A stretch of 64,000 bases of DNA from Acuticoccus mangrovi. Lineage in GTDB: Bacteria > Pseudomonadota > Alphaproteobacteria > Rhizobiales > Amorphaceae. Below, piece by piece: positions 3,684-51,769 of this stretch. Under the pieces are notes generated by a model, which was not told the DNA's origin, made no database searches, and saw only the letters and a program-made list of their open reading frames with translations. The first letter of the stretch is position 1. Each line of letters starts with the position of its first letter. Location of the stretch: assembly GCF_016411865.1 (NCBI RefSeq), contig NZ_JAEKJA010000023.1:1-64000 (forward strand). Reading direction: 5' to 3'. A program made the translations under genes and the position numbers.

Positions 3684-3695
3684 ATGTTATAACAT
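3684..3695. promoter_or_regulatory. Zur box upstream of aztD
   Basis: A perfect 12-base palindrome, ATGTTATAACAT, lying 33 bases before the aztD start and downstream of the zur stop codon. It is very AT-rich in a GC-rich setting and is identical to the box at 19116-19127. Its form agrees with the TGTTATA-type operators of bacterial Zur repressors. It would let aztD be switched separately from zur. Confidence 0.82.
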
Positions 3696-3759
3696 TACGT
3701 TCGTCCACGAACGAAAGCGGGGTGCGGCAGCGCGTCCGGTCGTGAAGGGCGGCGGGTGG

Positions 3760-4179
3760 TCAGGACGCCGCATCCAGCGTGGCGAGCGCCTTGAGGCAGG
3801 CCCTGCAGTAGCCTTGAACCTCGATGGTGGCGTGATGGACGGCGAAGCCCGCGCGCTTGGCCTCGTGATCGATCACGGCGAGGGCCGCTCCGCCGGGAAG
3901 CTCCTCGATCGCCTTGCACCTTGTGCAGATGGCGAACACGGGATCGCAGTGCCCGCCGTCGGGGTCGGAGCAGGCGACGTAGGCGTTGATCGATTCCAGG
4001 CGATGCACGCGACCCTTCTCGACGAGATAGTCGAGCGCGCGATACACCGTCGGCGGTGCCGAGATCCCGTGCTCTCGCACCCGGTCGAGCAGTTCGTAGG
4101 CGCTCATCGGTCCGCCAGCCGCGTGCAGCGCCTCGTAGATGTACTCGTGGTTGCGCATCGAGGAGCGAGCACGCTTCAT
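3760..4179 (-). CDS. zur: Fur-family zinc-responsive repressor (Zur), copy 1
   Basis: A 139-residue Fur-superfamily regulator. The N-terminal winged helix has MSAYELLDRVREHGISAPPT and VYRALDYLVEKGRVHRLES; the metal and dimerisation part has AYVACSDPDGGHCDPVFAI, followed by CTRC and a C-terminal CRAC pair, the two pairs expected to hold structural zinc. The ATG at 4179 is preceded by AAGGA at good distance. Its setting between aztD and a hupE-type gene, among Zur-like palindromes, supports a zinc role rather than iron. A second, related regulator is encoded at 19170, so which of the two is the main zinc sensor is open. Confidence 0.88.
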   Translation of the reverse strand: MKRARSSMRNHEYIYEALHAAGGPMSAYELLDRVREHGISAPPTVYRALDYLVEKGRVHRLESINAYVACSDPDGGHCDPVFAICTRCKAIEELPGGAALAVIDHEAKRAGFAVHHATIEVQGYCRACLKALATLDAAS

Positions 4180-4301
4180 TTCACATCCTTCCCCGTCATG
4201 AGCGTTGGTGGGTGGCTCCAGGCCGCGCTATGCTCGGCGAGGATAGGGCAGGGACCATAACCAATCGTTCACTTGCCCCGACCGAGTGCCGAGAATATCG
4301 G

Positions 4302-4313
4302 ACAGTATAACAT
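4302..4313. promoter_or_regulatory. Zur-like box between divergent zur and hupE
   Basis: Reading ACAGTATAACAT on the plus strand, that is ATGTTATACTGT on the minus strand. The same 12 bases begin the box at 11984. It lies between the divergently transcribed zur (starts 4179) and hupE-like gene (starts 4382), and could control both, giving autoregulation of zur. One half-site is imperfect. Confidence 0.65.
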
Positions 4314-4381: not shown

Positions 4382-4990
4382 ATGATGTCGTCGTCTTCCC
4401 GCCCCGTGCGCGGCTGTGCCGCTGGACTGCTCTCGCTGGCGTTCACCCTGGCGCTGCCGGCGATCGCGTCGGCCCACATCGTCACGGGAGAAAGCGGCGG
4501 GTTCGGCAGTGGCTTCGAGCACCCGCTGACCGGCCCCGACCACTTCCTCGCGATGTTCGCCGTCGGCCTGTGGGGAGCCCAGATGGGCGGACGCGCGGTC
4601 TGGAGCCTGCCTGTCACCTTTCCGCTCATCATGGTGCTCGGCGGTATTGCCGGCATCGTCGGACTGCCCTTCCCGGGTGTCGAGATCGGCATCGCCCTCT
4701 CGATCATCGTGCTCGGGCTCGCCATCGGCTTCGCCTGGAAGCCGGCCGAGTGGGGCGCGCTTCTCGTCATCGCGGTGTTCGCCCTGTGCCATGGCTACGC
4801 GCACGGCGCCGAGCTGCCCTACGCGGCCGATCCTGCCGACTATGCCATCGGCTTCGTGCTCGCGACGGGGCTCATCCACATCATCGGCATCGCCGTCGGC
4901 CTCGTGCTGAACCCGATCTATGGCGGCCGACTGTCCCGCGGGCTCGGCGGTGTCATCGCCATCGCGGGGCTCTATTTCCTTGTCCGCTGA
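4382..4990 (+). CDS. HupE/UreJ-family membrane metal transporter
   Basis: A 202-residue HupE/UreJ family protein. A signal peptide or first membrane segment (about 10-30) ends at ASAHIVTG. The family signature HPLTGPDHFLAM follows, then about six membrane segments with the second signature FALCHGYAHGAELP and a conserved histidine in GLIHIIGI. Family members near hydrogenase or urease genes are thought to carry nickel or cobalt. Here the gene follows a Zur-like palindrome and heads a three-gene unit with an unnamed membrane protein and a DUF1007 protein, so zinc is the likelier cargo, by inference. ATG 4382 and ATG 4385 are both possible starts. Confidence 0.88.
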   Translation: MMSSSSRPVRGCAAGLLSLAFTLALPAIASAHIVTGESGGFGSGFEHPLTGPDHFLAMFAVGLWGAQMGGRAVWSLPVTFPLIMVLGGIAGIVGLPFPGVEIGIALSIIVLGLAIGFAWKPAEWGALLVIAVFALCHGYAHGAELPYAADPADYAIGFVLATGLIHIIGIAVGLVLNPIYGGRLSRGLGGVIAIAGLYFLVR

Positions 4991-5744
4991 GATCATCGCG
5001 AGCGTCTCAGCCTCCACGCGGCGGTGGGCCGGGCCGGCGCTCGCCGTCGCGGGACTCGTGGGCTTCGGCCTCCTCGTCACGCTGGCGGAGACCTCGCTGA
5101 GGGACTGGGTGTTCCAGTCGGCCTTCGCGCCGGCGCGCGTCGTCCCGCTCATCGGGCTCGGCATCGCTTCCTGCCTGGTGCGCCCCGCCATTCTGCCCAT
5201 CGGCCTTGCCGCCTGGGGGCTCGGAGTGGGGGTCGCCCTGGCGCTCCAGGATCGGCTGATCGCCGCGTTGGCGACGATCCCGGGCGCGACGACCCACCAC
5301 TATCTGACGCTGCCGATCGCCTGTCTCTTCGTCGGCGCGACGTTGATCATCGGCGGGTGGGCGAGGGTGTGGCTCCTGCTGCCGACATCCTTCGTCGTCG
5401 GGGCGATGTTGGCGATCGCGACGGTGGTGTCCGACCCGAGCCTCGCCGACCCCCGCTATGTCGTGAGCGGCATCGCGTCCGGTCTCTGGGTCTTCCTGAT
5501 CGTCGGCCTCACCGGTCAGGCCTTCAAGGCGCGCTGGTTTGCCATCGCCGGGCGCATCGTGGGAAGCTGGCTCGTGGCGATCGGCCTTCTGTTCGGCGGG
5601 GCGGCGTTGATTCCGAAACCGAAGCCGCCGGCACCGCCGGTCGTGCCGCCGAGCGTGATACCGAGCCCGGACGCGTTCCCCGACTTCGGCGGCATGCCCG
5701 GGGTCCCCGCCGGTCTGGACGATGAACGCGTCTTTCAGCCCTGA
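4980..5744 (+). CDS. Seven-segment membrane protein of unknown function
   Basis: About 254 residues with seven predicted membrane segments and a cytoplasmic or periplasmic tail rich in proline (PKPKPPAPPVVPP). I do not recognise the family. It overlaps the end of the hupE-like gene by 11 bases if the TTG at 4980 is the start (MSAEIIASVSAS); the only in-frame ATG further up (4920) lies inside hupE and looks unsuitable. It is followed 18 bases later by the DUF1007 gene. The overlap and spacing say it is translated with its neighbours. A paired histidine in ATTHHYLTLP, between segments 3 and 4, could bind metal. It may be a partner in zinc or other metal uptake. Confidence 0.75.
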   Translation: MSAEIIASVSASTRRWAGPALAVAGLVGFGLLVTLAETSLRDWVFQSAFAPARVVPLIGLGIASCLVRPAILPIGLAAWGLGVGVALALQDRLIAALATIPGATTHHYLTLPIACLFVGATLIIGGWARVWLLLPTSFVVGAMLAIATVVSDPSLADPRYVVSGIASGLWVFLIVGLTGQAFKARWFAIAGRIVGSWLVAIGLLFGGAALIPKPKPPAPPVVPPSVIPSPDAFPDFGGMPGVPAGLDDERVFQP

Positions 5745-5762: not shown

Positions 5763-6389
5763 GTGAGTGGATCTCGATCCCATCGCTTTCGCCGCAGCGG
5801 CGTGCGCCGCGCCTTCGCGCTGTGCCTCGCGCTGCTCCTTGCGAGCGCGGGCACGGTCTCGGCCCATCCCGACATCGCGATGCGCTGCCGCATCCTCCTC
5901 AACTTCAAGAACGACAAGATCGACTACATCGCCGAGACGTGGACGTTCGATTCCTTCTTCAGCCAGGGGCTGTTGAACGACTTTGACAAGGATCGCGACG
6001 GTGCCTTCGACGCCGCCGAGGCTCAGGCGCTGCAGGCCGACATGATGGCGCGCCTCGCCGAGGAGCGTTACTTCACCTATTTCTGGGCGGCGGGTGAGGA
6101 GATCGCGAACTTTCGGCTGATCGGCTTCGAGCCGCAGGTGCGGGACGGCTATGTGACCGTCGGCTTCGCCCTGTCGCTTCCCCATCCCGTCGAGCCCGGC
6201 TCGGTGAAGGTGGAGCTGAAGGACCCGAGCGGCGCCGTCTCCATCGAGCTCGTCGAGGAGCAGCCGGTCATCCTGCGCGGCATGCGGGCGGGGTGGTGCG
6301 AGCCGCAGCTTTACGACAGCTCCGCCGAAGCCTTTTTCGAGGGTCTGTCGTCGCCGGCGTCGGTCGCGATCTCCTGCGGGCCACGCTAG
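5763..6389 (+). CDS. DUF1007 family secreted protein with an EF-hand-like loop
   Basis: A 208-residue exported protein of the DUF1007 family, translated from a GTG at 5763. A long positively charged N-terminus and hydrophobic core (about 15-34) end in TVSAHPDI, so the mature protein begins with a histidine, as is common in metal-binding periplasmic proteins. Residues 78-89 read DKDRDGAFDAAE, an exact match to the 12-residue EF-hand calcium loop pattern. DUF1007 proteins often accompany nickel, cobalt or zinc transport genes, and here the gene is third after the HupE-like protein. It probably binds or presents a metal in the periplasm; the function is unproven. Confidence 0.85.
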   Translation: MSGSRSHRFRRSGVRRAFALCLALLLASAGTVSAHPDIAMRCRILLNFKNDKIDYIAETWTFDSFFSQGLLNDFDKDRDGAFDAAEAQALQADMMARLAEERYFTYFWAAGEEIANFRLIGFEPQVRDGYVTVGFALSLPHPVEPGSVKVELKDPSGAVSIELVEEQPVILRGMRAGWCEPQLYDSSAEAFFEGLSSPASVAISCGPR

Positions 6390-6475: not shown

Positions 6476-6488
6476 GTTATATTATAAC
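6476..6488. promoter_or_regulatory. Zur box upstream of the first COG0523 gene
   Basis: A perfect 13-base palindrome, GTTATA-T-TATAAC, extended on the right to ACATAC. It lies 60 bases upstream of the COG0523 GTPase start at 6548. This is the form (TGTTATANTATAACA) reported for Zur operators in alphaproteobacteria. Confidence 0.85.
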
Positions 6489-6547
6489 ATACAAAAAGAG
6501 TGACCGCCGAGTGCGGATGAGCGAACAGCGCTTATCAGGAGTGTTCC

Positions 6548-7765
6548 ATGAAGGACCAACGCCTTCCCGTGACCGTGCTTTCCGGCTTCCTCGGCGCCGG
6601 CAAGACCACGTTGCTCAACCATATCCTCAACAATCGTGAGGGGCGGCGCGTCGCCGTCATCGTCAACGACATGAGCGAGGTAAACATCGACGCCGACCTC
6701 GTGCGCAGCGGCGGCGCCGATCTGTCGCGCACCGACGAGAAGCTCGTCGAGCTGACCAACGGCTGCATCTGCTGCACGCTGCGCGACGATCTCCTCGCCG
6801 AGGTACGCCGCCTCTCCGAAGGGGGGCGCTTCGACTATCTTCTCATCGAGGGGACCGGCATTGCCGAGCCGCTTCCCGTCGCCGCGACGTTCGAGTTTCG
6901 CGACGAGGAGGGCGTGTCGCTCTCCGATGTCGCCCGCCTCGACACGATGGTGACGGTGGTCGACGCCGCCAACCTCCTCAAGGACTATGGAAGCCACGAC
7001 TTCCTCAAGGATCGCGGCGAGACCGCCGGCGAAGGCGACGAGCGCACCCTCGTCGATCTGCTCGTCGACCAGATCGAGTTCGCCGACGTGATCGTGCTCA
7101 ACAAGATGGGCGAGATCGACGAGGCGACCGCCCGCGCCGTTCGCGCCGTCGTCAAGGCGCTCAACCCGGATGCCCATCTCATCGAGACCGACTTCGGGCG
7201 CGTGGCGCTCAACGAGGTGCTCGATACCGGCCGCTTCGACTTCGACAGGGCGCAGGAGCATCCGCTCTGGTTCAAGGAGCTGAACGGCTATGCCGACCAC
7301 GTGCCGGAGACGGAGGAGTACGGCGTTTCGAGCTTCGTCTATCGCGCCCGCCGGCCGTTCCATCCGCAGAAGTTTGCCGCCTTCACGCGGCGGACGTGGC
7401 CGGGCCTCGTGCGGGCGAAGGGGCTCTTCTGGCTGGCGACGCGACCGGCTTGGGTGGCCGACTTCAGCCTCGCCGGGTCGATCGCCCGGACCGAGGCGAT
7501 GGGCTTCTGGTGGGCCGCCGTGCCGCGCGAGCGTTGGCCGGACCATCCGGAGTGGCGCGAGATGCTGAAACGCAACTGGGCGCCGGGCTGGGGCGACCGG
7601 CGTCAGGAGCTCGTCTTCATCGGCGCCAACATGGACGAGGGGGCGATCCGCGCCGCGCTCGACGAGTGCCTGATCGAGGAGAGCGAGGGCGAAGCGTTCG
7701 ACCCGGCCGCCTATCGCCACCTGCCCGACCCGTTCCCGGCCTGGGGGCAGGCGGCCGCCGCCTGA
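6548..7765 (+). CDS. zigA: COG0523 GTPase metallochaperone (ZigA-like)
   Basis: A 405-residue member of the COG0523 (CobW/ZigA) family of G3E GTPases that pass zinc to client proteins during deficiency. It has Walker [10 protein letters not shown] (13-21), the metal-binding CxCC motif NGCICCT (Cys73, 75, 76), the guanine-specificity motif LNKMGE and the C-terminal CobW domain (about 280-400). There is no histidine-rich stretch, unlike its neighbour. AGGAG precedes the ATG. A perfect Zur palindrome stands upstream, so expression is expected under zinc limitation. A GC-rich hairpin ends it. Its size and the strong Zur box resemble ZigA of Acinetobacter; the clients are unknown. Confidence 0.92.
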
Positions 7766-7827: not shown

Positions 7828-9036
7828 TCAGGCGAGCCCCGAAGCGCCCATCACGTCGGCCGGCGTGCGCAGGCACACGCTGTTGAACAGCTTTTCGATG
7901 GTCGTCGGGTCGAGACCCTGAACGATGGCGACGAGCCGGCTTCGCCGATCCTCCCCCGGCCAGTCGTCGAGCCGCGCGAGGGGGTGCACGACGTGCTGCA
8001 CCGCCTGCAGAATGTAGGGGTGATCGGGCTCGTCGGCGAAGGCGATGATGCCCTTCATGCGGAGCATGTTGGCGCCGTAGAGCATGCTCACCGTGTCCAT
8101 GAACACCGTGAACGCCGTCTTGTCGATGGGCCGGTCGGCGACGACGCTCACCGAGTTGATGCCGTTGAGGTCGTGCTCGTGCTCATGATCATGATCGGCG
8201 TGGTCGTGCTCGCCATGATCATGGTGATGGTCGTGATCATGGTGGTGGTGCGCGTGGTGAGTGTGGCCGTGGTCGTCGAGCCACTCCTGAACGTCGCCGT
8301 CGAGGTCGGTCGGGGCGTAGGGGCGCGGCGCGAAGGCGTCGACGAGGCTGAAGCCGGGGTCGGCGACGTCGTCGATCGGGGCGTGCGGGTTGAAGCGGGC
8401 GATCGAGCGGCGAAGCTCCGCGAGGTGCTGCGCCTTGTCCTCGGTGTCGAGAAGATCGGTCTTCGTCAGGAGGACGCGGTCGGCGAAGGCGAGCTGCTTC
8501 ACGCATTCGGCGTGGCGGGCGAGCGTCTGGGGCCCGTGGATGGCGTCGAACGTGGTGACCACCCCGGCAAGGCGGTAGTGGCGGGCGACCGTGTGGTCCC
8601 TGAGGCCGAAGGCGGGGACGGCTCCGGCGACGAGCTGATTGATCACCGGGGCGGGGTCGGCCAGTCCCGTCGTCTCGATGATGACCCGCTGCAGCGGCAG
8701 GCGGCCCGTGGTGCGGGCCGCTTCGTGAAGCTCTGCAACCGAGACGCGGATGTCGCTGCCGGCCGTGCAGCAGAGACAGCCGGTGCTCGTCACGGCGACG
8801 TCGGGCCGGCCCTCGGCGAGGATGTCGTGATCGACGGCGACGTCGCCGAACTCGTTGATGACGAGGCCGGTGCCGGCAAATTCGGGCTGCGCTAGGAGCC
8901 GGCGCAGAAGCGTCGACTTTCCCGATCCGAGGAAGCCGGTGAGGATCAGAATCGGGGTGGGCGCTCCGTCTGGGCGCGCCGGTCGCTTCGCTTCGGCGTC
9001 CTGTCGAGTTCCGGTGTCGGGTGCGGCTGCGGTCAC
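7828..9036 (-). CDS. COG0523 GTPase metallochaperone with histidine-rich insert
   Basis: A second COG0523 GTPase, 402 residues. Walker A is GFLGSGKSTLL (34-44) and the metal motif is TGCLCCTA (Cys87, 89, 90). Around residues 250-285 there is a dense His/Asp/Glu run, starting DHGHTHHAHHHHDH, that would bind several zinc ions. The C-terminal CobW domain follows. The GTG at 9036, with GGAG upstream, is the only sensible start. It is the last gene of the aztA-aztB-aztC unit, 70 bases after aztC and beyond a strong hairpin, so it may be made at a lower level. It probably receives or stores zinc brought in by the Azt importer. Confidence 0.92.
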   Translation of the reverse strand: MTAAAPDTGTRQDAEAKRPARPDGAPTPILILTGFLGSGKSTLLRRLLAQPEFAGTGLVINEFGDVAVDHDILAEGRPDVAVTSTGCLCCTAGSDIRVSVAELHEAARTTGRLPLQRVIIETTGLADPAPVINQLVAGAVPAFGLRDHTVARHYRLAGVVTTFDAIHGPQTLARHAECVKQLAFADRVLLTKTDLLDTEDKAQHLAELRRSIARFNPHAPIDDVADPGFSLVDAFAPRPYAPTDLDGDVQEWLDDHGHTHHAHHHHDHDHHHDHGEHDHADHDHEHEHDLNGINSVSVVADRPIDKTAFTVFMDTVSMLYGANMLRMKGIIAFADEPDHPYILQAVQHVVHPLARLDDWPGEDRRSRLVAIVQGLDPTTIEKLFNSVCLRTPADVMGASGLA

Positions 9037-9106: not shown

Positions 9107-10111
9107 TTAGCTAGCGCTGAGGGCGCTCAGCAGCGTCTTCGCGTTGTTCTCGAACATGTCGACATAGGTCGAGGCCGGGCCGTCGGGGCCCGACAGGGCG
9201 TCCGAATAGAGCTCGCCGCCGACCTTGGCGCCGGTCTCGCGGGTGATCTGCTCGACCACGCGGTTGTCGGTGATGTTTTCCACGAAGACCGCGGCGATCT
9301 GCTCGTCGCGGATCTGGTCGATGATGTGGGCGATGTCGGCCGCCGACGGCTCGGCCTCGGTGCTGAGGCCTTCGGGGGCGATGAACTCGAGGCCATAGGC
9401 GCGGCCGAAATAGCGGAACGCGTCGTGCGAGGTCACGATCTTGCGCTGCGTGTCGGGCAGGGCGCCGAACTCGCTCTTCAGCTTGGCGTTGAGCGCTTCG
9501 AGGGTGGCGATGTAGTCCTTGGCCCGCTCTGCGTAGGCGTCGGCGTGGGCCGGGTCGGCCTCCTCCAGAGCGGTGGCGATGTTCTTTGCGAAGATCACGC
9601 CGTTGGCGAGATCCTGCCAGGCGTGCGGATCGAAGTCGCCGTGATGGTGGTGGCCCTCGTGCCCGTGCTCATGCTCGGCGTGCTCTTCGCCGTGGTGATC
9701 GTGGTCGTCGTCATCGTCATCATCGTCGTGATGATGCTCGTGTTCGTGCTCCTCGTCCCATGTCATGGGGGTCACACCGTCGGTCGCCGTCGCCGTGAGG
9801 CCGGAGAACTCGGCCGCCTCGACGAGGCGGGGGAGCCAGCCTTCGAAGTCGAGCCCGTTGACGATGAGCACGTCGGCCTTCGACAGGGCCTTCGCGTCGG
9901 CGGGGGTCGGCTCGTAGACGTGAGCGTCGCCGTTCGGTCCGACGATGGTCGTCACCGAGACCTGATCGCCACCGATCTCGCTCACCATGTCACCGAGGAT
10001 GGAGAAGCTTGCGACGACGTCGAGCTTGTCCTGCGCGAGCGCTCCGCCGGCGGCGGAGACCGTGAGGGCGAGCGCCGAGGCCGCTCCAATGAGTGTGCGG
10101 CGTGTCAGCAT
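9107..10111 (-). CDS. aztC: Zinc-binding periplasmic protein of ABC importer (AztC)
   Basis: A 334-residue cluster A-I substrate-binding protein. The signal peptide covers residues 1-26 (ending GGALAQ). Zinc ligands expected in the family are seen at His64 (GDAHVYEP) and His163 (DFDPHAW), with another in TSHDAFRYFG. Residues 121-158 form a long mobile loop of histidine and acidic residues, typical of zinc carriers such as ZnuA and AztC. The ATG at 10111 has AAAGGA upstream. It follows aztB by 16 bases. The presence of an aztD gene in the same region favours AztC over ZnuA, although sequence alone does not fully separate them. Confidence 0.88.
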   Translation of the reverse strand: MLTRRTLIGAASALALTVSAAGGALAQDKLDVVASFSILGDMVSEIGGDQVSVTTIVGPNGDAHVYEPTPADAKALSKADVLIVNGLDFEGWLPRLVEAAEFSGLTATATDGVTPMTWDEEHEHEHHHDDDDDDDDHDHHGEEHAEHEHGHEGHHHHGDFDPHAWQDLANGVIFAKNIATALEEADPAHADAYAERAKDYIATLEALNAKLKSEFGALPDTQRKIVTSHDAFRYFGRAYGLEFIAPEGLSTEAEPSAADIAHIIDQIRDEQIAAVFVENITDNRVVEQITRETGAKVGGELYSDALSGPDGPASTYVDMFENNAKTLLSALSAS

Positions 10112-10127
10112 GGCATATCCTTTACTG

Positions 10128-11000
10128 CTAACGCTGGAGGTGGGGGAGGTGCAGGGCCTGCGACAGGAAGCTTCCGCGCGGTCCGACGAGGACGGAGATG
10201 GCGTAAGCCGTCCCCGCACCGAGGATGATCGCCGGCGAGGAGGGCAGGTGCGCGTGGTAGGACACCAACAGCCCCGCGAGCGAGGAGCCGATGCCGATCA
10301 CGACGCCGACGATGAACTGACCCGGGATCGTCTCGGACCAGAAGCGTGCGGCCGCGGCCGGCAGCATCATGATCCCGACCACCATCAGCGTGCCGAGCGC
10401 CTGAAAGCCCGAGACGAGATTGAGCACGACGAGCGTCAGGAAGACGAGGTGGACCGCGCGCCCGGCCCCGCCGACATTGCGCAGGAAATCCGGGTTGAAG
10501 CACTCGGCGACGAGGAGGCGGTAGATGATCGCGAGCACGTTGATCGTAAGGCTCGTCACGATGGCGATGAGGAGGATCGAGCCGTCGTCGAGGGCGAGCA
10601 CGGTGCCGAACAGGACGTGCATGATGTCGACGTTCGAGCCGCGGGTTGAGACGAGCAGCACGCCGAGGCCGAGCGAGATCAGATAGAAGGCGGCAAAGCT
10701 CGCGTCTTCGCGCAGCGGCGTCATGCGTGACACGAGCCCCGCCAGGAGGGCCACGGTGAGCCCGGCGACGACGCCGCCGATCGTCATCGTCCACAGCGAC
10801 AGGCCGGCGAAGAGGAAGGCGACGGCCGCCCCGGGCAGGATCGCATGCGCCATGGCGTCGCCCATCAGGCTCATGCGGCGGATGATGAGGAGCACCCCGA
10901 GCGGCACCGAGCCGAGGCTGAGGGCGACGCAGCCGATGAGGGCGCGCCGCATGAAGCCGTAGCTGACGAACGGCTCGACGACGAGTTCGTAGAGGCTCAT
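10128..11000 (-). CDS. aztB: Zinc ABC importer permease (AztB)
   Basis: A 290-residue integral membrane permease of the ABC-3 (manganese/zinc/iron chelate) family with about eight hydrophobic segments. The family motifs include RRMSLMGDAMAHAILPGAA near residues 41-60 and LGVLLVSTRGSN in the middle. It pairs with the ATPase upstream, whose stop overlaps its ATG by four bases (ATGA), and with the binding protein 16 bases downstream. It forms the channel through which zinc crosses the inner membrane. Confidence 0.92.
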   Translation of the reverse strand: MSLYELVVEPFVSYGFMRRALIGCVALSLGSVPLGVLLIIRRMSLMGDAMAHAILPGAAVAFLFAGLSLWTMTIGGVVAGLTVALLAGLVSRMTPLREDASFAAFYLISLGLGVLLVSTRGSNVDIMHVLFGTVLALDDGSILLIAIVTSLTINVLAIIYRLLVAECFNPDFLRNVGGAGRAVHLVFLTLVVLNLVSGFQALGTLMVVGIMMLPAAAARFWSETIPGQFIVGVVIGIGSSLAGLLVSYHAHLPSSPAIILGAGTAYAISVLVGPRGSFLSQALHLPHLQR

Positions 11001-11856: not shown

Positions 11857-11984
11857 GGGTGCCTCCGTTCGCATGCCCGCATGGTCGGTCGGTCGGCCGC
11901 CCGTGCGCCGCCGCGCGGTAGAGCGGCCATTGAAGCGAGCGGTTCACTCAGCCCTGACATGTGCACCTGATCGGTATTGTTTTA

Positions 11985-11999
11985 TGTTATACTGTAACA
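11985..11999. promoter_or_regulatory. Zur box of the azt operon
   Basis: Reads TGTTATACTGTAACA: outer arms TGTTA and TAACA are perfect around five bases. It lies 129 bases upstream of the small membrane-peptide start at 11856 and is the nearest box to the aztA transcription unit. It should repress zinc import when zinc is ample. Confidence 0.75.
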
Positions 12000-13934: not shown

Positions 13935-13969
13935 GGCAGCCTCGCAGCGAGGAGGACGAGGGGCTTGCC

Positions 13970-15690: not shown

Positions 15691-15692
15691 GA

Positions 15693-17580: not shown

Positions 17581-18366
17581 CTAGAAGACCGGCGCCGAGA
17601 TCTGGTCGCAGGTGCGGGGTTCGTGCCTCTCGTTGGTGCTGACCGGTGAAAGGGTCTGGGCGAGGGGGTCGTTGAGGGGGACGTAGAGGCTGGTGAGGCC
17701 ACGTGCGCCGAGGAGCGCGAGGAGGGGGGCGGCAGTTCCGAGGGGCGGGTGGTTCGCGACACGGTCGTCGCCGCCGCTGCGGGTGAGGAGATGGACACCG
17801 CGGTGGTCGCTGTGGAGGACGCCATCGAACCCGTCGGGAACGCCGCGACGGGGGCGCAGCGCGTCGCCGAGCGTGATCAGCGGCCGGCCATGGGCGATCC
17901 GATGGAAGAAGCCCGCCATGATCTGCCGCGCCTCGTCCGCCCCCGCGCCGATCTCGACGGCGACGCCGGCCTCGCGCAGCCTTCGGAACCCGCCACCGTT
18001 CACCCGCGGATCGGGGTCCTGCAACGAGGCGAACACCCGCGCGACGCCGGCGGCGACGATCGCGTCGGCGCAGGGCGGGGTCTTGCCGTAGTGGCAGCAG
18101 GGCTCGAGCGTGACGTAGAGCGTCGCACCGCGCGCCGCCGGCCCGGCGTCGTCGAGGGCGACGCGCTCGGCGTGAGGGCGGCCGCCGACCTGGGTGCGCC
18201 CGCGTCCCACCACGCGCCCGTCGCGCACGATCACGCAGCCGACGGGCGGGTTCGGCCAGACGTGGCCCTGCATCGAGCGGGCAAGCATCAGCGCTTCGCC
18301 CATCGCGGCTGCATGATCGACCGGCGGCTCGGTGCACGCGGTGCCGACGCGCGGCGCCATTATCAT
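17581..18366 (-). CDS. RibD-like zinc deaminase lacking a normal reductase domain
   Basis: A 261-residue paralogue of the riboflavin enzyme RibD. The N-terminal cytidine-deaminase-like domain is complete: PNPPVGCVIVRDG, the catalytic PHAE (His65, Glu67), and EPCCHYGKTPPC with zinc ligands Cys90 and Cys99. The C-terminal part from about residue 150 is short and divergent (GRPLITLGDALRPRRG) compared with the roughly 200-residue reductase domain of full RibD. It could thus perform only the deamination step of riboflavin synthesis. ATG 18366 is preceded by AGAGG. It lies downstream of hisI in a unit headed by a Zur box, which fits the known duplication of zinc enzymes in Zur regulons. Confidence 0.82.
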   Translation of the reverse strand: MIMAPRVGTACTEPPVDHAAAMGEALMLARSMQGHVWPNPPVGCVIVRDGRVVGRGRTQVGGRPHAERVALDDAGPAARGATLYVTLEPCCHYGKTPPCADAIVAAGVARVFASLQDPDPRVNGGGFRRLREAGVAVEIGAGADEARQIMAGFFHRIAHGRPLITLGDALRPRRGVPDGFDGVLHSDHRGVHLLTRSGGDDRVANHPPLGTAAPLLALLGARGLTSLYVPLNDPLAQTLSPVSTNERHEPRTCDQISAPVF

Positions 18367-18409
18367 AAGGCCTCTTTCACAATCGGCGATCCCGACCCAC
18401 GGCGGCCGA

Positions 18410-18889
18410 CTATAGCCGGGTGGGGTTCGGCGCGTCGCCATAGACGGCGACGGGATCGAACGCCTTCTCCGTCTCGGTGAAGTCGAGCGCGATGGGGCGT
18501 GCGTCGCCGTCCGTCGAGACCGCCCGATAAAAGCACGAGCGGAAGCCGACGTGGCAGCTCGCGTTGCCGGTCACCTCGACGCGGAGCCAGATCGCGTCCT
18601 GATCGTCGTCGACCCGGATTTCGACGATCTTCTGGACGAGGCCGCTCGTCGCACCCTTATGCCAGAGGCACTGGCGGCTCCGGCTCCAATAGTGCGCCTC
18701 GCCCGTCTCGATGGTGCGAAGGAGGGCGTCGGCGTTCATCATGCCCATCATGAGGACCTCGCCCGAGTGGGCATCGGTCGTCACCACCGGGAGGAGCCCG
18801 TCGGGGCCGAACTTGGGCGCGAGGAGCCTGCCTTCCTCGACCTCTTCGACGGTGCGGCGTGCGGCAAAGGGAGGTTGGGTCTCAGCCAT
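18410..18889 (-). CDS. hisI: Phosphoribosyl-AMP cyclohydrolase paralogue (HisI)
   Basis: A 159-residue HisI-type enzyme, which opens the purine ring of phosphoribosyl-AMP in histidine synthesis. Family motifs are SGEVLMMGMMN, HYWSRSRQCLWHKGATSG, and SCHVGFRSCFYR (Cys112, Cys119). The usual DCDxD motif, in which aspartates bind magnesium and the cysteine is a zinc ligand, reads DDDQD here, with Asp95 in the cysteine position. The metal site may therefore be altered. No other his gene is nearby, so this is a stand-alone copy. It begins a leftward unit (with the RibD-like gene) 227 bases from the Zur box at 19116. The ATG at 18889 fits the family N-terminus. Confidence 0.9.
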   Translation of the reverse strand: MAETQPPFAARRTVEEVEEGRLLAPKFGPDGLLPVVTTDAHSGEVLMMGMMNADALLRTIETGEAHYWSRSRQCLWHKGATSGLVQKIVEIRVDDDQDAIWLRVEVTGNASCHVGFRSCFYRAVSTDGDARPIALDFTETEKAFDPVAVYGDAPNPTRL

Positions 18890-19115: not shown

Positions 19116-19127
19116 ATGTTATAACAT
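19116..19127. promoter_or_regulatory. Zur box between divergent hisI/ribD-like and zur2/cysS units
   Basis: A perfect palindrome ATGTTATAACAT, identical to the one before aztD. It lies 43 bases upstream of the second Fur-family gene (19170) and could also act on the leftward hisI unit. About 225 bases between it and hisI hold no gene that I can support. Confidence 0.82.
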
Positions 19128-19169
19128 AACGATCCAGTCGCAACAACGCGTGGAAGGAACGTGGTTTCG

Positions 19170-19664
19170 ATGAATACCCTCCTCCAACGGAAGCCCGCGC
19201 ACCAATGCCCCGAGGGGCGTCCGCTCTCGGCCGAAGAGGTCTGTGCAGAGCGGGGGCTTCAGTTGAGCGAGGTGCAGCGCTCAATCCTGGAATATCTGTG
19301 GCGGCGCGGCCAGCCGGTCGGCGCCTACGGGCTCATGCGCGAGCTCAAGGGCACGCTCACGCGGCAGCTGTCGCCACCAACCGTCTACCGCGCGTTGGAG
19401 TTCCTGCAGAAGGAGGGGCTCGTCGCGCGCATCGAGACCAAGAACGCCTTCGTCGCCTGCGCCCGGCCGCACCGCAACCGCGCCTATGTCTACTTCATCT
19501 GCGACACGTGCGGGGCGTCGGTGGAGATCGAGAGCGCCGAGATCGAGGCGCAGGTCGCGCACGATGCCGCCTTTCTCGGCTTTCGCATCGGACGCCGCGT
19601 GATCGAGCTGGAGGGAACCTGCGCCGACTGCCTGTCGCGCGAGGCGGCGAACGCCGGCTGTTGA
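19170..19664 (+). CDS. Fur-family zinc-responsive repressor (Zur), copy 2
   Basis: A 164-residue Fur-superfamily regulator. After a 35-residue leader, the winged helix reads VQRSILEYLWRRGQPVGAYG, with SPPTVYRALEFLQKEG as recognition helix. The metal domain has AFVACARPH, the pair CDTC and a C-terminal CADC pair. It is more like E. coli Zur in length than copy 1. The ATG at 19170 was preferred; a GTG at 19161 is too near the AAGGA. A perfect Zur palindrome directly upstream suggests that zinc limitation induces it, and it is followed 58 bases later by the cysS paralogue. Confidence 0.87.
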   Translation: MNTLLQRKPAHQCPEGRPLSAEEVCAERGLQLSEVQRSILEYLWRRGQPVGAYGLMRELKGTLTRQLSPPTVYRALEFLQKEGLVARIETKNAFVACARPHRNRAYVYFICDTCGASVEIESAEIEAQVAHDAAFLGFRIGRRVIELEGTCADCLSREAANAGC

Positions 19665-19722: not shown

Positions 19723-21105
19723 ATGGCCATTCAACTCACCAACAGCTTCGGTGGGCACAAGGAGATCTTCGTTCCGCAGACGCCTGACCGCGTGCGGCTC
19801 TATGTGTGCGGGCCCACGGTCTACGACTTCGCCCACATCGGCAACGCCCGCCCGGCCGTCGTCTTCGACGTGCTCGTGCGGGTGCTGCGCCGCCACTTCG
19901 GCGAGGTCGTCTACGTCCGCAACCTCACCGACATCGACGACAAGATCAACGCCGCCGCGCGGCGCGAGGGCGTTTCGATCGGCGTGATCGCCGAGCGGTA
20001 CGCCGCGGCCTATCACGCCGACATGGCGGCGCTCGGTGTCGCGCCGCCGACCGTCGAGCCGAAGGTGACGGATCATCTGCCCGAGATCATCGACCTCATC
20101 GGCCGGCTGATCAGCAGCGGGAACGCCTACGTCGCCGAGCGGCACGTCCTCTTCCATGTGCCCTCGTTCGCCCAATATGGCGCGCTGTCCGGACGCAGCC
20201 CGGAGGAGATGATCGCCGGGGCGCGGGTGGAGGTCGCCCCGTTCAAGCGGCACCCGGCCGACTTCGTGCTGTGGAAGCCCTCGAGCGCGGATCAGCCGGG
20301 TTGGGATAGCCCGTGGGGGCGGGGGCGGCCCGGCTGGCACATCGAGTGCTCGGCGATGATCGAGCGCCATCTCGGCTCCTCGATCGACATCCACGGCGGG
20401 GGTCAGGATCTGATCTTCCCCCACCATGAGAACGAGATCGCGCAGGGGACCCGGGCCAGCTACTGGCTCCACAACGGCTTCGTTACGGTCGAGGGGCACA
20501 AGATGTCGAAGTCGATCGGCAACGTGCTCCTCGTGCGCGATCTGCTCCAGGAAGCGCCGGGGGAGGCGATCCGCTTCGCGCTGCTGTCGGCCCACTATCG
20601 CCAGCCGCTCGACTGGACGTCGCAGACGCTGCATCAGGCGCGCCGCAGCCTCGATCGGCTCTACGGCGCGCTGCGTCACCTGGAAGGGGCCGAGGGTGAG
20701 GGGGATCCGGCGCCCTATCTCGCGGCGTTCCATGCCGCCCTCGACGACGATCTCAACACCCCTGCGGCGTTCGCCGAGCTTTTCCGCCTCGCGCGGTCGG
20801 CCCGCGACGAGACGTCACCCGCGATCCGCAGCGCCCTCCGGTCGGCGCTCGTCCGGGGCGGGGCGGAGCTCGGCCTGCTGCAGGACGCGCCGGAGGCGTG
20901 GTTTCGCCGGTCGGCGACGGGTGAGGGGGAGCCCGATCGCGTGCGCATCGAGGCGCTGGTCGCCGAGCGCGCCGAGGCCCGGGCGGATCGAGACTTCGAG
21001 CGGGCCGACCGGCTGCGGACCCAGCTCCAGGCGCTCGGAATCCAGCTGGAGGACAACGGCGATCGGACCGATTGGCGGTTTGATCGTAACGTTATAACAT
21101 CATGA
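19723..21105 (+). CDS. cysS: Cysteinyl-tRNA synthetase (zinc-regulon copy)
   Basis: A 460-residue class I synthetase that charges tRNA-Cys. It has the HIGN signature ([10 protein letters not shown]), KMSKS ([10 protein letters not shown]) and all four zinc ligands expected from the E. coli enzyme: Cys29 in YVCGPTVYD, the cysteine of HIECSAM, and the histidine and glutamate of [10 protein letters not shown]. It is therefore still zinc-dependent by appearance. Its place after a Zur-boxed regulator suggests that it is a second copy made when zinc is scarce, as described for cysS duplicates linked to COG0523 genes. Whether the chromosome also has a housekeeping cysS cannot be seen here. Confidence 0.93.
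21089..21100. promoter_or_regulatory. Zur-like box at the 3' end of cysS, before the DUF1826 gene
   Basis: ACGTTATAACAT, one mismatch from the perfect palindrome, located inside the last codons of cysS and 69 bases upstream of the DUF1826 start. It would give that gene its own zinc-controlled promoter. Confidence 0.68.
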
Positions 21106-21168: not shown

Positions 21169-21780
21169 ATGCGTCCTGAGGTGGCCGCGACGATGAATGT
21201 TTCGGACGATCCGTTCGTCCTCGGCTCCGTCGCGGAGGCGGGCGTGGCGCTGGCCGTCTGGCAGCGCAAGCTTCCGGACGCGCTCGAGGCGTGGCTGGAG
21301 GCGCTGCCTGCCGCCCGGTTTCCGACGATGCGGCAACGCTGTTCCGCCGCCGAGGTCGGGGGCACCGTGCGAGAGGCGTGCCGCAGGGCGAAGACGCCTC
21401 AATGCGCCGAGCGTGAGGCCTTCATCGAGGCGGTGAGCGCCCTCGCGCGCCTCGCCGCGGAGGTGATGCGATCGCCGCTGATCGAGCTGCGCCTCGAGGT
21501 CGCCGAGGATCAGCCGTGCCCCAAATGGCATGTCGACGGAGTGCGTTGCCGCCTGCTCTCCACCCTGCGCGGGCCGGCGACGGAGTTCGGCCCCCTCGGG
21601 GCCGACGGCGCGCCGACGTCGACCTATCGGCCGCCCGCCGGCGCCGTCGCGCTCGTCCGCGGTCGCCTCTGGTCCGAGCGCGAGCCCTGCGCGATCGTCC
21701 ACCGCTCGCCGCCCATCAAGGCGGGTGTGACGCGGTTCTTCCTCTCTATCGATCCGGTCGACGAGATGCAGATGAGCTAG
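21169..21780 (+). CDS. DUF1826 family protein of the zinc regulon
   Basis: A 203-residue cytoplasmic protein of the DUF1826 family. The signature CPKWHVDGVRCRLLSTLRGP near residues 118-137 is followed by VHRSPP and a C-terminal beta strand. The pattern H-x-D and the late histidine recall a metal-binding cupin or dioxygenase-like fold, but that is inference. The family is known mainly from neighbourhoods of COG0523 and Zur genes; no biochemical function is established to my knowledge. It stands between a Zur-like box and a terminator, as a single-gene unit. Confidence 0.85.
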   Translation: MRPEVAATMNVSDDPFVLGSVAEAGVALAVWQRKLPDALEAWLEALPAARFPTMRQRCSAAEVGGTVREACRRAKTPQCAEREAFIEAVSALARLAAEVMRSPLIELRLEVAEDQPCPKWHVDGVRCRLLSTLRGPATEFGPLGADGAPTSTYRPPAGAVALVRGRLWSEREPCAIVHRSPPIKAGVTRFFLSIDPVDEMQMS

Positions 21781-21874: not shown

Positions 21875-21887
21875 GTTATATTATAGC
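21875..21887. promoter_or_regulatory. Zur box upstream of the COG0523/WD40 operon
   Basis: GTTATA-T-TATAGC, a single base from the perfect palindrome at 6476. It lies 98 bases before the COG0523 start at 21986 and controls, by inference, the four-gene operon to 25194. Confidence 0.75.
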
Positions 21888-21985
21888 GTACCATATCGAT
21901 GGACCGGTCGACGGCGGCGCGGTGCGTCAAGGCACGCGAGGATCACGGATCCCGCGCCCGGTCGGCCGAACTCATGGAGGCGATC

Positions 21986-22951
21986 ATGGTCGCACAGGTG
22001 CCTGTCACCGTCCTCACCGGCTTTCTCGGCGCCGGGAAGACGACACTTCTCAACCGGATTCTGACCGAGCAGCACGGCAAGAAATACGCCGTCATCGTCA
22101 ACGAGTTTGGCGAGACCGGCATCGACAACGATCTCGTCGTCGACGCCGACGAGGAAGTGTTCGAAATGAACAACGGCTGCATCTGCTGCACCGTGCGCGG
22201 CGATCTCATCCGCATCCTCGGCGGCCTCATGAAGCGGGCCGACCGGTTCGACGCGATCCTGATCGAGACCACCGGGCTCGCGGATCCCGCCCCCGTCGCC
22301 CAGACTTTCTTCGTCGACGCGGAGGTCGCCGACAAGACGCGCCTCGACGCGATCGTGACCGTGGTCGATGCGCGTCATCTGGAGAGCCAGCTCGCCGAAA
22401 GCCACGAGGCGGCAGAGCAGCTCGCCTTCGCCGACATCATCCTGTTGAACAAGATCGACCTCGTCGATGCGGACGCCCTCGCCGAGGTCGAAGCCCGCAT
22501 CCGGGCGATGAACCCCTATGCCAAGATCGTCCACAGCGAGAAGTGCGGCGTTCCGCTCGAGACGGTGCTGGGGCAGAACGCCTTCGACCTGAAGCGCGTC
22601 CTCGAGATCGAGCCCGAGTTCCTCGACACCGCGCACGAGCATGAGCACGACGACGCGGTGACCAGCGTCTCGCTGGAGGCCGATACGCCGCTCGATCCGG
22701 ACAAGTTCCAGACCTGGTTCGGGCAGCTGTTGCAGGAGCGGGGGCAGGACATCCTGCGCTCGAAGGGCATTCTCGACATCGCCGGCGCGGAGGATCGTTA
22801 TGTGATCCAGGGCGTCCACATGCTCATGGACGGCGACTTCCTGGGACCGTGGCCGGCCGGCGACACCCGCCGTTCCCGCCTCGTCTTCATTGGGCGCGAG
22901 CTCGACAAGATGGACCTCGCCGAAGGCTTTGCCGCATGCAAGGCGGTCTGA
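21986..22951 (+). CDS. COG0523 GTPase metallochaperone, third copy
   Basis: A 321-residue COG0523 GTPase with Walker [10 protein letters not shown], metal motif NGCICCTV (Cys65, 67, 68), LNKIDLVD as the guanine motif and a short charged metal patch HEHEHDD before the C-terminal CobW domain. The ATG at 21986 has GGAGG five bases upstream and was preferred over the ATG at 21974. It is the first gene of an operon with a WD40-like protein, a small cysteine-bearing protein and a hydrolase-fold protein, all joined by overlaps. This is the shortest of the three COG0523 proteins here and likely serves a different client. Confidence 0.92.
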
Positions 22952-24015
22952 GCGCGGATCTGCGCACGCGCGAAGGCTTTCCCCCGACGGAGCTCGAGCG
23001 CGGCGGGCGGCCGATCGAGACGGGCGCCTACGTCACCGCCGCCGTGGGGCTCGGCGATGTGGTGGCGGCGGCACACGGAAACGGCGAGGTCCGCCTCTTC
23101 GCGGCGGGGAAAGGGGCGGAGCCGATGGTGGTGCCGGCGCATCGCGGCGCCGTCCTCGCGATGGCGCGGGCGGGCGATGACGCCCTCGTCACCGGCGGCG
23201 ACGACGGCCGCTTTCTGCGGATCTCCGCGCAAGGGGAGGTCGAGGAGATCGCGAGCTTCGGCTCGCGATGGGTCGATTGCGTCGCGGCGGGCCCGGCGAC
23301 GGGCCTCCTCGCATGCTCGGCCGGCAAACACGCCTATGTGCGCTCGAGCGACGGCGGCAAGACCGAGATGCTGGAGCACCCGAGCACCGTCGGCGGGCTC
23401 GCCTTCGACCGGAAGGGCCGCCTCGCCGTCGCCCACTATGGCGGCGTCACGGTCTGGGAGCGCAAGGGCCGGCGGTGGACGTCCACGCGGCTCGTGTGGG
23501 CCGGATCCCACATCGGCGTGTCGTGGAGCCCCGACGGCAAGTTCGTCGTCACCGCCATGCAGGAGAACGCGCTGCACGGGTGGCGTCTGCGCGACAAGGC
23601 GGACATGCGCATGTCCGGCTATCCGAGCAAGGCGCGCTCCGTCGATTGGGTGGGGGAGGTGCCTTACCTCGTCACCAGCGGCGCCGACCAGGCGATCTGC
23701 TGGCCCTTCGGCGGCAAGGACGGTCCGATGGGGCGCGGCCCGCTCTGCGTCGCCTATGGCGGCAAGCAGCTCGCGACCGCCGTCGTCGGCATGCCGGGAA
23801 AGTCGGCGGTCCTCGTCGGGTTCCAGGACGGCGCGGTGCTGTTCAGCGAGCTGAAGGACGATGTCGACGGCTTCGTCGTCCGCGGCTCCACCGGCGTCGA
23901 AGTGACCGCGCTCGCGGTGACCGCCTCGCACTCCCACATCCTGATCGGTGACGCGGACGGTGGCCTCTTGTGGCTGCCCCTCGATAAAGGGGCCCACTAT
24001 GCTGGGGCTCTTTAA
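22936..24015 (+). CDS. WD40-repeat-like beta-propeller protein
   Basis: A 359-residue protein with repeating blade-like units, for example [20 protein letters not shown], then [19 protein letters not shown] and [16 protein letters not shown]. No signal peptide is visible, so it is probably cytoplasmic. It begins at an ATG (22936) inside the last codons of the COG0523 gene, and ends beyond the start of the next small gene, so all are translationally coupled. WD40-like proteins are repeatedly found next to COG0523 genes in alphaproteobacteria; it may act as a docking platform for the GTPase and its client. No enzymatic residues stand out. Confidence 0.85.
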
Positions 24016-24259
24016 GCGCCAGCGGCCCGACGTGGAGGCGGTCCGGCGGGTGAAGGCGCTCGTCGCGGCCCGCTTCGACGTTGCCGATCAAGCCGCGATC
24101 ACCGTCGCCGAGCTGCGCTGCGCGGAGCCGGGCTGCCCGCCCGTCGAAACGGTGATAACGGTGCGTGAGGCGGACGGCCGCCTGCGGCAATGGCGCATCG
24201 CGAAGCCCATCGCCGAGGTCGAAGGCGCAGAGGTTGCGGGGTTGGGGGCCGAGTCATGA
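23999..24259 (+). CDS. Small conserved-looking protein with a CxxxxC motif
   Basis: An 86-residue protein, [16 protein letters not shown] at the N-terminus, followed by AELRCAEPGCPPVETVITV, where two cysteines are four residues apart, and a basic/tryptophan stretch RLRQWRIAKP. It overlaps the WD40-like gene by 17 bases and the next gene by four (ATGA). I do not know the family's role. Paired cysteines and its place in a zinc-controlled operon suggest a small metal or redox partner. Confidence 0.75.
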   Translation: MLGLFKRQRPDVEAVRRVKALVAARFDVADQAAITVAELRCAEPGCPPVETVITVREADGRLRQWRIAKPIAEVEGAEVAGLGAES

Positions 24260-25194
24260 CGGGCGGGCCTATGTCGGTCGATGCCGATCCTGTCGCAGAG
24301 GCGACGGAGTTCGTCTGGACGGGCGCCGGCGAGCCGATCGGCTGCGGCGTGACGCGGCTCGGCGCGGGGGAGACGGCTCTCCTCCTGCCCGCGCTCTCCT
24401 CGATCTCGACGCGGCGCGAGATGTGGCCGCTGCAGCAGCGCCTCGCCCGGCGCTTCGCCACGATCGCCGTGGACTGGCCGGGCTTCGGCACCGAGGACAA
24501 GCCCCGGCGGGACTGGACGTCGGCGGCGTTGGCGCAGTTTCTCGCCGACGTGTTGCGGGAGCTCGCTCCCCGCCCCGCGCTGATCGTCGCCGCGGGCCAT
24601 GCGGCCGGCTACGTGCTGCGCCACTTCGCCAGCGCGCCGGAGGAGGTGTCCCACCTCGCCCTCGTCGCCCCCACCTGGCGCGGGCCGCTCCCCACCATGA
24701 TGGGCCGCCGGCCGGCCTGGCTGCGGACCGTGCGCGCGGCGATGGATCGGCCGGTGCTGGGGCCGGCGCTCTATGCCCTCAATCTCAACGACGTGGTGAT
24801 CCGGGCGATGGCGCGCGAGCACGTCTATTCCGACCGGACCTGGCTCGATCGCTCGGCGATGGACGACAAGCGCCGCGTGGCGCAGGCGCGCGGGGCGCGG
24901 TTCGCCTCGGTCCGCTTCGTGACCGGGGCGCTCGATCCGTTCGAGAGTTCGGCTGCGTTCCAGGCTGCGGCGGCCGCCATTCCCCCAGGCCGGCTGGGGC
25001 TCGTCTGGGGCGCGGAGACACCGCCGAAGTCGAAGGCCGAGATGGGCATGCTCGCCGCGGCCGCCCAAGTTTCACCCACGGTCCTGCCGCACGGCAAGCT
25101 CGGCGTGCACGAGGAGTTCGCCGCCGAGGTCGCCGAGGCGATCCTCAGCGGGCTCGACGAGGCGTCCGAGCTGGCGGTTGCCCCGATCGAGTGA
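24256..25194 (+). CDS. Alpha/beta-hydrolase-fold protein without a serine nucleophile
   Basis: A 312-residue alpha/beta-hydrolase-fold protein. The oxyanion region (LLPALSS) and the WPGFG turn are as in family members. The nucleophile elbow, normally GxSxG, reads GHAAG (residues 114-118), with alanine at 116. The acid (TGALDPF) and histidine (GVHEEF) positions are kept. The codons are clear (CAT GCG GCC), so this is not a reading error in translation. It may be a non-catalytic partner or use another nucleophile. The start ATG overlaps the preceding stop (ATGA). A product downstream of a COG0523 gene is compatible with a role in metal delivery or ligand handling. Confidence 0.82.
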   Translation: MTGGPMSVDADPVAEATEFVWTGAGEPIGCGVTRLGAGETALLLPALSSISTRREMWPLQQRLARRFATIAVDWPGFGTEDKPRRDWTSAALAQFLADVLRELAPRPALIVAAGHAAGYVLRHFASAPEEVSHLALVAPTWRGPLPTMMGRRPAWLRTVRAAMDRPVLGPALYALNLNDVVIRAMAREHVYSDRTWLDRSAMDDKRRVAQARGARFASVRFVTGALDPFESSAAFQAAAAAIPPGRLGLVWGAETPPKSKAEMGMLAAAAQVSPTVLPHGKLGVHEEFAAEVAEAILSGLDEASELAVAPIE

Positions 25195-51767: not shown

Positions 51768-51769
51768 CG

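Follow-up and report, generated by a model that had tools for sequence, protein, structure and literature searches.

A very probable Zur-controlled zinc-starvation island in Acuticoccus mangrovi with eight boxes and an aspartate-form HisI

We analysed a 64-kb stretch of Acuticoccus mangrovi DNA (the window), which opens the 92.5-kb contig C16. The genome comprises 5.46 Mb in 65 contigs. A 22-kb block of this window carries a zinc importer set of the AztABCD type, a Nik-type ABC transporter, three COG0523 GTPases, two Fur-family regulators (Zur1 and Zur2) and spare copies of the enzymes HisI, CysS and RibD, with eight short AT-rich boxes between them (Table 1). The G+C content of the window is 69%, with 0.694 for the block versus 0.691 for the remainder. 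Judged from its sequence, the block is a real Zur regulon cluster, of a known kind and unusually rich here.

The first-pass annotation, made from the letters alone, had listed eight related palindromes, and all eight sequences were found where it placed them, including two identical perfect 12-mers (ATGTTATAACAT, at 3684 and 19116) and a perfect 13-mer (GTTATATTATAAC, at 6476). The eight are real, but those given as 4302 and 12103 are weak palindromes with one good half each, and the best registers of three boxes are 4299–4313, 12100–12114 and 21086–21100. All eight stand before or between units, as had been claimed; the box at 21086 overlaps the final codons of cysS2. Aligned on one half, the boxes resemble GTWAYRNTATAACAT, some closely and boxes 2, 5 and 8 loosely; the box at 21875 has no exact TATAACAT half. 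In Paracoccus denitrificans, a 15-bp motif was found by MEME upstream of zinc-regulated genes (Neupane et al., PMC5387054), for instance GTAACGTAATAACAT and GTAATGTAATAACAT, the latter being the Zur site before aztA, and Zur bound promoters with these sites in a zinc-dependent manner in electrophoretic mobility shift assays (EMSA; PMC5387054). A 15-bp matrix was built from the eight window sites, which thus helped to make it, and five of these published sites, and a box was called at 17.5 bits or more. Exactly the eight boxes reached this threshold (18.3–31.1 bits), the next best match in the 64 kb scored 11.6 bits, and none of 30 first-order random resamples of the window held a match at that level. 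The published sites scored 27.8–29.6 bits with the same matrix.

A motif common throughout the genome would, according to the first-pass annotation, have spoken against the idea, but the genome-wide counts did not show this. Exact TATAACAT gave 12 hits genome-wide, corresponding to ten distinct sites, seven of which lie in 17.4 kb of the block (binomial P 4e-16 for a pattern picked from the window), while the reversed control, with 14 hits, was no rarer across the genome. Allowing one mismatch to RYGTTATANNATAACRY gave five distinct sites, four in the block and one on contig C7. At up to three mismatches there were 83 matches versus 96 for the control, and the loose pattern therefore carries no meaning alone. 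Outside the block, TATAACAT occurs on C7 before an alkaline phosphatase gene, on C15 between a third Zur gene (zur3) and a gene for a His-rich protein, and on C56 within the end of an open reading frame (ORF), the last probably by chance.

Table 1 Predicted features of the zinc island in the window
Feature	Position	Strand	Score or remark
aztD, periplasmic zinc metallochaperone	2439..3653	-	NCBIfam AztD 364 bits, 1-356/356, below 400-bit cut-off; alignment over almost the whole length with solved AztD-type chain 6ck1 (E 1e-130)
Zur box 1, GTAATGTTATAACAT, before aztD	3684..3698	-	30.9 bits
zur1, Fur-family regulator keeping the four structural Cys and a His77-equivalent	3760..4179	-	nearest NCBIfam Zur 94.8 bits (cut-off 167); Pfam FUR 20.9 (cut-off 23.1)
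Zur box 2, between zur1 and hupE	4299..4313	+	18.3 bits; left half weak
hupE/ureJ-type metal permease	4382..4990	+	Pfam HupE_UreJ 1.6e-54
Seven-segment membrane protein	4920..5744	+	start more likely near 4978; no match in Pfam and NCBIfam
DUF1007 protein	5763..6389	+	Pfam DUF1007 1.2e-26
Zur box 3, perfect GTTATATTATAAC, before zigA	6476..6490	+	31.1 bits
zigA, zinc metallochaperone GTPase	6548..7765	+	NCBIfam ZigA 630.4 bits, above cut-off 600
COG0523 GTPase b, final gene of aztABC run	7828..9036	-	Pfam cobW and CobW_C
aztC, zinc-binding protein	9107..10219	-	NCBIfam AztC 313 bits, below cut-off 350
aztB, permease	10128..11000	-	NCBIfam AztB 264 bits, below cut-off 280
aztA, ATPase	10997..11743	-	NCBIfam AztA 221.6 bits, above cut-off 220; start chosen from translation
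Zur box 4, before aztABC-COG0523b	11984..11998	-	27.0 bits
Zur box 5, before Nik-type ABC operon	12100..12114	+	22.1 bits
Nik-type ABC operon: nikA/cntA-like binding protein, two permeases, fused double ATPase	12402..17111	+	Pfam; NCBIfam Opp5A_nikA 215 bits, Opp2B 263, Opp2C 176, all below cut-offs
ribD2, RibD deaminase half only	17581..18441	-	TIGR00326 over 1-146 of 343; Pfam dCMP_cyt_deam_1
hisI2, Asp-form phosphoribosyl-AMP cyclohydrolase	18410..18889	-	Pfam PRA-CH 3e-29; VDDDQDA replaces VDCD; start chosen from translation
Zur box 6, between hisI2-ribD2 and zur2	19116..19130	-	30.6 bits
zur2, Fur-family regulator without His77-equivalent	19161..19664	+	Pfam FUR 5e-10
cysS2, spare cysteinyl-tRNA synthetase	19723..21105	+	TIGR00435 470 bits; aligned to 1li5
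Zur box 7, before DUF1826 gene, overlapping cysS2 end	21086..21100	+	29.5 bits
DUF1826 protein	21169..21780	+	Pfam 9e-44
Zur box 8, before COG0523c	21875..21889	+	20.3 bits
COG0523 GTPase c, adjoins WD40 protein	21899..22951	+	Pfam cobW 4e-63; 78% identity to Gemmobacter plasmid copy
WD40-like protein	22939..24015	+	weak WD40 matches; beside COG0523c in other genomes
Small protein with CAEPGCPP motif	23999..24259	+	homologues after COG0523 or WD40 in L068, L150, L062; frame 23948-24256 without match in Pfam and NCBIfam
Alpha/beta hydrolase	24190..25194	+	Pfam Abhydrolase_6 2e-14

Similar islands were encountered on plasmids. Of 72,556 plasmid records searched by tblastn with HisI2, 751 gave a match, and in 36 of them a single place spanned 80% or more of the query. 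From the first 18 entries of the list we examined eight; seven, all from alphaproteobacteria, carried zinc islands (Paracoccus sp. MA, Phaeobacter inhibens, Acetobacter pasteurianus, Bosea vaviloviae, Gluconobacter albidus, Gemmobacter aquarius and Thioclava sp.), with varying mixtures of hisI2 and zigA or another COG0523 gene, ribD2, zur, DUF1826, cysS2 or thrS, folE and azt genes. The Bosea island includes a Nik-type importer and the Gemmobacter island a run of COG0523, WD40 and small cysteine protein genes; no zur gene was annotated in the island stretches of Phaeobacter and Thioclava. Since these seven islands did not feed the matrix, they provide an independent test: 14 boxes of at least 17.5 bits were found, where resampling gave an expectation of 0.68, and 14/14 lie between annotated genes (non-coding fraction 0.141, P 1.2e-12). 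The eighth plasmid, a Pseudomonas mercury plasmid (L152), carries the Cys form of hisI, without zinc genes and without a box. PLSDB typing classified three of the seven island plasmids as conjugative, one as mobilizable and three as non-mobilizable. The occurrence of such islands on plasmids suggests that kits against zinc shortage can pass from one bacterium to another as whole units. The Phaeobacter (L146 8291–8764) and Thioclava (L151 9465–9938) islands have, next to thrS and not far from hisI2, a second gene annotated as phosphoribosyl-AMP cyclohydrolase, missed by our HisI motif search, that may encode a diverged paralogue.

Among genome contigs scanned, the only relative of Zur2 was found in a Pararhizobium metagenome-assembled genome (MAG), where the order ribD2-hisI2-folE-zur2-COG0523-cysS2-thrS could be read from ORFs, accompanied by four boxes. 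Alignment by blastn of 19.9 kb of the block with ten relatives (six of the genus, four of other families) returned pieces: a zigA-COG0523 run of 2.4 kb in G004, zigA over 1.2 kb in G003, and diverged transporter and cysS matches. Among the matches listed from other genomes none exceeded 2.6 kb; these included several island-like pieces lying close together in one genome of another family (G013, C1:407–415 kb), namely zigA, azt-like and Nik-like. The WD40 protein and the small cysteine protein are probably members of the island, judging from the recurrence of both beside COG0523 genes in other genomes.

The spare HisI has a changed zinc site. In canonical phosphoribosyl-AMP cyclohydrolase, the catalytic zinc is held by three cysteines that have been called universally conserved (PMC8102479). 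HisI2 exceeds the Pfam and NCBIfam HisI cut-offs and is thus a member of the sequence family, but it reads VDDDQD at the first zinc cysteine, so that in direct alignment to 1zps Cys86 (1zps count) is replaced by Asp; Cys102 and Cys109 are kept, and the three-cysteine site is incomplete. The Asp form was found in 9/9 island copies (window, L068 and L145–L151), the Cys form in HisI1 of the host genome, in 30/30 loci read from the order and on the mercury plasmid. Forms were assigned by a motif search requiring Asp87, Cys102 and Cys109, the invariance of which is partly by construction; the order loci read had the 30 highest scores, and Asp-form genomes were selected for their similarity to HisI2. 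A 70-row tree, with a short alignment, many open forks and an unsettled bootstrap, parted Cys and Asp forms by one supported branch (99/90) and placed HisI2 beside the Pararhizobium copy (100/95), within the Asp group and away from HisI1. When rows were sorted by residue 86, position 40 was Ala in 49/51 of the Cys group versus Gly in 76/77 of the Asp group, and a C-terminal PNPT tail also sets the Asp group apart. A match was obtained in 147 genomes of the order, 143 of which have a single HisI. When the Asp form was sought outside the class, 9/398 genomes of a phylum-wide draw matched at E 1e-45, all nine of the same class, the share of the 398 outside this class not being shown.

Eighty of 385 genomes of the class had a HisI2-like match at E 1e-40, comprising the host itself, one genome left out (G123) and 78 that were read, with 64 Asp and 14 Cys forms. 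Ten Asp-form genomes had more than one HisI, and in nine of them a box stood upstream of the Asp copy within the approximately 1.5 kb fetched, the tenth (L144) being cut by a contig end. Where the Asp form was the only HisI found, a box was present in 3/54 genomes (Fisher P 8e-8 for multi- versus single-HisI genomes). These three loci all have 26–35% G+C, and resamples give 0.42–0.75 hits each; we rejected them as real sites and take them as chance matches in AT-rich loci. No box was found in the 14 Cys-form genomes; a 22.0-bit match at Cys-form locus L098 lies past the 3′ end of the HisI domain, not upstream. Both forms were read in 12 genomes (G301, G439, G517, G219, G492, G478, G155, G379, G486, G109, G139 and the host). 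Here, a box preceded 11/12 Asp copies, the twelfth being cut off at the end of its contig, and 0/12 Cys copies; this count leaves out G316, with a box at its Asp copy, and G101, whose Asp copy is cut off in the same way, the second copy being unread in both. The boxes are 239–1407 bases from the WxKG motif inside the hisI gene, and some of them therefore lie past a neighbouring gene.

On these grounds, Asp-form HisI2 looks like a zinc-sparing isoform under Zur. The replacement as a mark of Zur-linked paralogues alone was rejected, since the Asp form is also the sole HisI found in many genomes. It may instead be lineage drift without effect on the zinc need, with the spare copy merely raising the amount of enzyme, a possibility that we take seriously while leaning against it. 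As the only HisI found in 54/64 Asp-form genomes, the Asp form presumably works in ordinary cells. Haas et al. (2009) saw the zinc residues conserved in Zur-linked HisI paralogues and named copy number as one suggested reason (PMC2770081). Moreover, the genomes cannot be treated as independent, since seven of the Asp copies that have a Cys-form partner fall into a single clade, and fewer independent events stand behind the box association than the counts suggest. Drift is at odds with the distribution of boxes where the two forms coexist (11/12 versus 0/12) and with the identity of the replaced residue, one of the three catalytic-zinc ligands called universally conserved (PMC8102479). Zinc sparing by HisI2 would be of wider interest, because the coexisting forms amount to a natural experiment in which the form without one zinc cysteine stands behind a Zur box. 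If the Asp form indeed works with less zinc, it would represent a one-residue route to zinc economy in spite of the supposed universality of the cysteines, and would help explain lineages living with the Asp form alone.

The other spare enzymes differ from HisI2 in this respect. In an alignment with E. coli CysS (1li5), CysS2 retains the four columns, Cys, Cys, His and Glu, that we take to be zinc ligands; RibD2 lacks the reductase half and keeps the HAE and PCC-PPC motifs, presumably zinc ligands as well. The spare set is therefore mixed, with and without altered ligands.

A second peculiarity of the island is Zur2. The four structural cysteines are kept in 13/13 Zur rows compared, Zur1, Zur2 and Zur3 (C15) included. 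Zur1 and Zur3 also keep the equivalents of His77, Cys88 and Glu111 (the His96 column is poorly aligned), whereas Zur2 keeps those of Cys88 and Glu111 and lacks that of His77, which we assume to be a sensor-site residue in E. coli. Of seven Zurs encoded in an island together with hisI2, six have another residue in place of the His77-equivalent (Ala in Zur2, then Thr, Ser, Gly, Gly and Gln), while the Bosea protein retains His; the His is also present in E. coli Zur, in Zur1 and Zur3, in two znu-linked Zurs and in a Methylobacterium Zur whose setting is unknown. The B site of Zur has been described as three His and one Glu (PMC5387054). Zur2 stands behind box 6 and is therefore expected to rise as zinc falls; on sequence grounds, such a zinc-poor sensor, produced when needed, might damp the response or keep hold of a part. 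Zur2 might, however, function as a second sensor that has a set point of its own and governs part of the island, a tentative alternative to which we give appreciable weight, short of an even chance. It keeps the four structural cysteines and the equivalents of Cys88 and Glu111, shares the PPTVYRAL stretch with other Zurs and sits between two island units; the loss of one His need not end sensing, and the Bosea island Zur retains it. A working sensor is harder to reconcile with the absence of the His77-equivalent from six of the seven island Zurs, and with the Zurs of L147, L149 and L150, which are changed at His77, Cys88 and Glu111 where the two znu-linked Zurs examined keep them.

Combining both observations, we propose, as a statement about equally liable to hold or to fail, that HisI comes in two kinds among alphaproteobacteria. 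Of these, the Asp form (Cys86 to Asp, Gly40, PNPT tail) would be zinc-sparing, Zur-switched where it stands beside the everyday Cys form and the sole HisI in some lineages, and a Zur paralogue of the same islands, its sensor decayed, would reset the response.

For the block as a whole, the profile matches, the box matrix, the rarity of the boxes and their recurrence in other islands lead us to regard it as very probably a Zur-controlled zinc-starvation island. With ample zinc, the zinc-loaded regulator would occupy the eight boxes and keep the units silent; Zur1 and its paralogue on C15, Zur3, both of which have the sensor histidine, are the likeliest candidates. As zinc falls, release of Zur would allow production of the importers (AztABC with its chaperone AztD, the Nik/Cnt-type importer and HupE), of ZigA and two further COG0523 GTPases, which are thought to pass scarce zinc to chosen proteins, and of spare enzymes for normally zinc-dependent steps. 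Among the latter, Asp-form HisI2 would need less zinc or another metal, CysS2 with its kept ligand columns would be a plain spare copy, and RibD2 would complete the set. Zur2, itself behind a box and with part of its sensor site gone, would damp or reshape the response.

The zinc role that the first-pass annotation had assigned to the units is borne out by the profile matches of AztA–D, ZigA and Zur, with an Azt model as the best NCBIfam match for each of the four Azt proteins, and by boxes that are like P. denitrificans Zur sites and rare elsewhere. Several points weigh against such an island. AztB, AztC and AztD fall just below curated cut-offs; Zur1 and Zur2 are well below the enterobacterial Zur cut-off, and Zur1 is also below that of Pfam FUR. 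Boxes 4, 5 and 6 are approximately 240, 290 and 230 bases from the chosen aztA, nikA and hisI2 starts, far for simple repression; box 2 is weak; and a sigma-70 promoter scan gave one cluster only, over box 8 and near chance.

The boxes might also serve another Fur-family sensor (iron, manganese or nickel) in a general divalent-metal island, which we consider very unlikely. Nik- and HupE-type transporters, usually tied to nickel, are among the members, two other Fur-family genes lie on C23 and C63, and the adjacent cation exporter (25222–26220) scores as DmeF (Co/Ni); the matrix scan found no box before it. ORFs at 50343–54965 of the same contig read as what we take to be a urease cluster. The Nik-type importer scores far under the nickel and opine model cut-offs, so its substrate is not fixed by profiles; its link to zinc would be its own box and, by likeness of annotation, the zinc-regulated, box-bearing pden1341-1344 genes of P. 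denitrificans, a Ni/dipeptide ABC operon (PMC5387054). Against other metals also speak the zinc-dependent EMSA binding of similar P. denitrificans sites (PMC5387054), the scores of AztA and ZigA above zinc-specific cut-offs and the affiliation of the spare enzymes with zinc-enzyme families. That the boxes are chance AT-rich words is already contradicted and can be set aside, for although neither exact TATAACAT nor the loose RYGTTATANNATAACRY pattern is commoner than its control, the sites cluster in the block, resemble the published motif and are intergenic throughout the independent islands.

Further observations concern the surroundings and the remaining genome. An inverted repeat, GTTCCCTCAGATCGTTTGAGGGAAC, at 3654–3678 between box 1 and the aztD start holds a likely ribosome-binding site in its arm and could thereby control aztD translation. 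Rfam at gathering scores matched no known RNA in window positions 1–30000, and a riboswitch or other known RNA in the long nikA and aztA leaders was rejected accordingly. No plasmid or transfer genes were recognised by eye among ORFs of at least 110 amino acids in window 26–64 kb and C16 64–80 kb, where no profile search was run; C16 80–92.5 kb was covered by the box scan only. On C7, a 29.8-bit box, the only near-exact one found outside the block, lies ~30–45 bases before a gene for a PhoA-type alkaline phosphatase (C7:4071–5567; L001 1501–2997). This protein keeps most of the residues that we assume to be zinc ligands, and a zinc enzyme behind a Zur box would be odd. Three homologues (L154, L155 and L162) had no box at 14 bits or more in the stretches scanned, and we therefore rejected Zur control of the phosphatase as a conserved feature, leaving a single-genome hint only. 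The third Zur gene on C15 (L072 680–1863, about 45–46 kb) is separated by a 19.8-bit box from a gene for a His-rich secreted protein, presumably ZrgA-like. The same contig (L050 350–6147) holds a decayed second copy of the COG0523-WD40-hydrolase run, in which the COG0523 part lacks a start and is fused in frame to an apparent ParB-like N-terminus and the WD40 part has a stop, followed by a short integrase-like gene and an apparent dusA. Finally, a second metal ABC transporter (C45:240673–243144) is 68% identical in DNA to azt stretches, and has similar stretches in genus relatives; the ten TATAACAT sites all lie elsewhere.

As a Zur regulon island, the block confirms and extends a known response. 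The P. denitrificans Zur regulon shares the operator type and comprises zinc-repressed aztABCD, a COG0523 gene and a Ni/dipeptide ABC operon; zinc depletion induced the latter two 8.6- to 16-fold and aztD nearly 25-fold (PMC5387054). Its units are scattered, going by locus numbers, and zur lies with znuABC (PMC5387054), whereas the A. mangrovi island gathers them in a single block that also has spare HisI, CysS and RibD and a sensor-poor second Zur. The COG0523 clusters of Haas et al. (2009) likewise combine zur, zinc importers and paralogues of HisI, CysRS, ThrRS and others, and DUF1826 and WD40 neighbours are mentioned as well (PMC2770081). The Zur-linked HisI of the window differs in having lost one zinc Cys, and RibD does not occur in the main text of that study (PMC2770081). 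Genomic islands under Zur or zinc control are also known from Vibrio cholerae (VSP-II, PMC8248653) and Mycobacterium avium ssp. paratuberculosis (PMC4298942), in other hosts and, going by the titles, with partly other functions. A literature search gave no mention of an Asp-form HisI or a sensor-poor second Zur in the titles and abstract starts of the matches listed. Within the literature compared, as far as the portions consulted extend, an Asp-form HisI under Zur and a sensor-poor island Zur would be the parts in which this island goes beyond known Zur islands.

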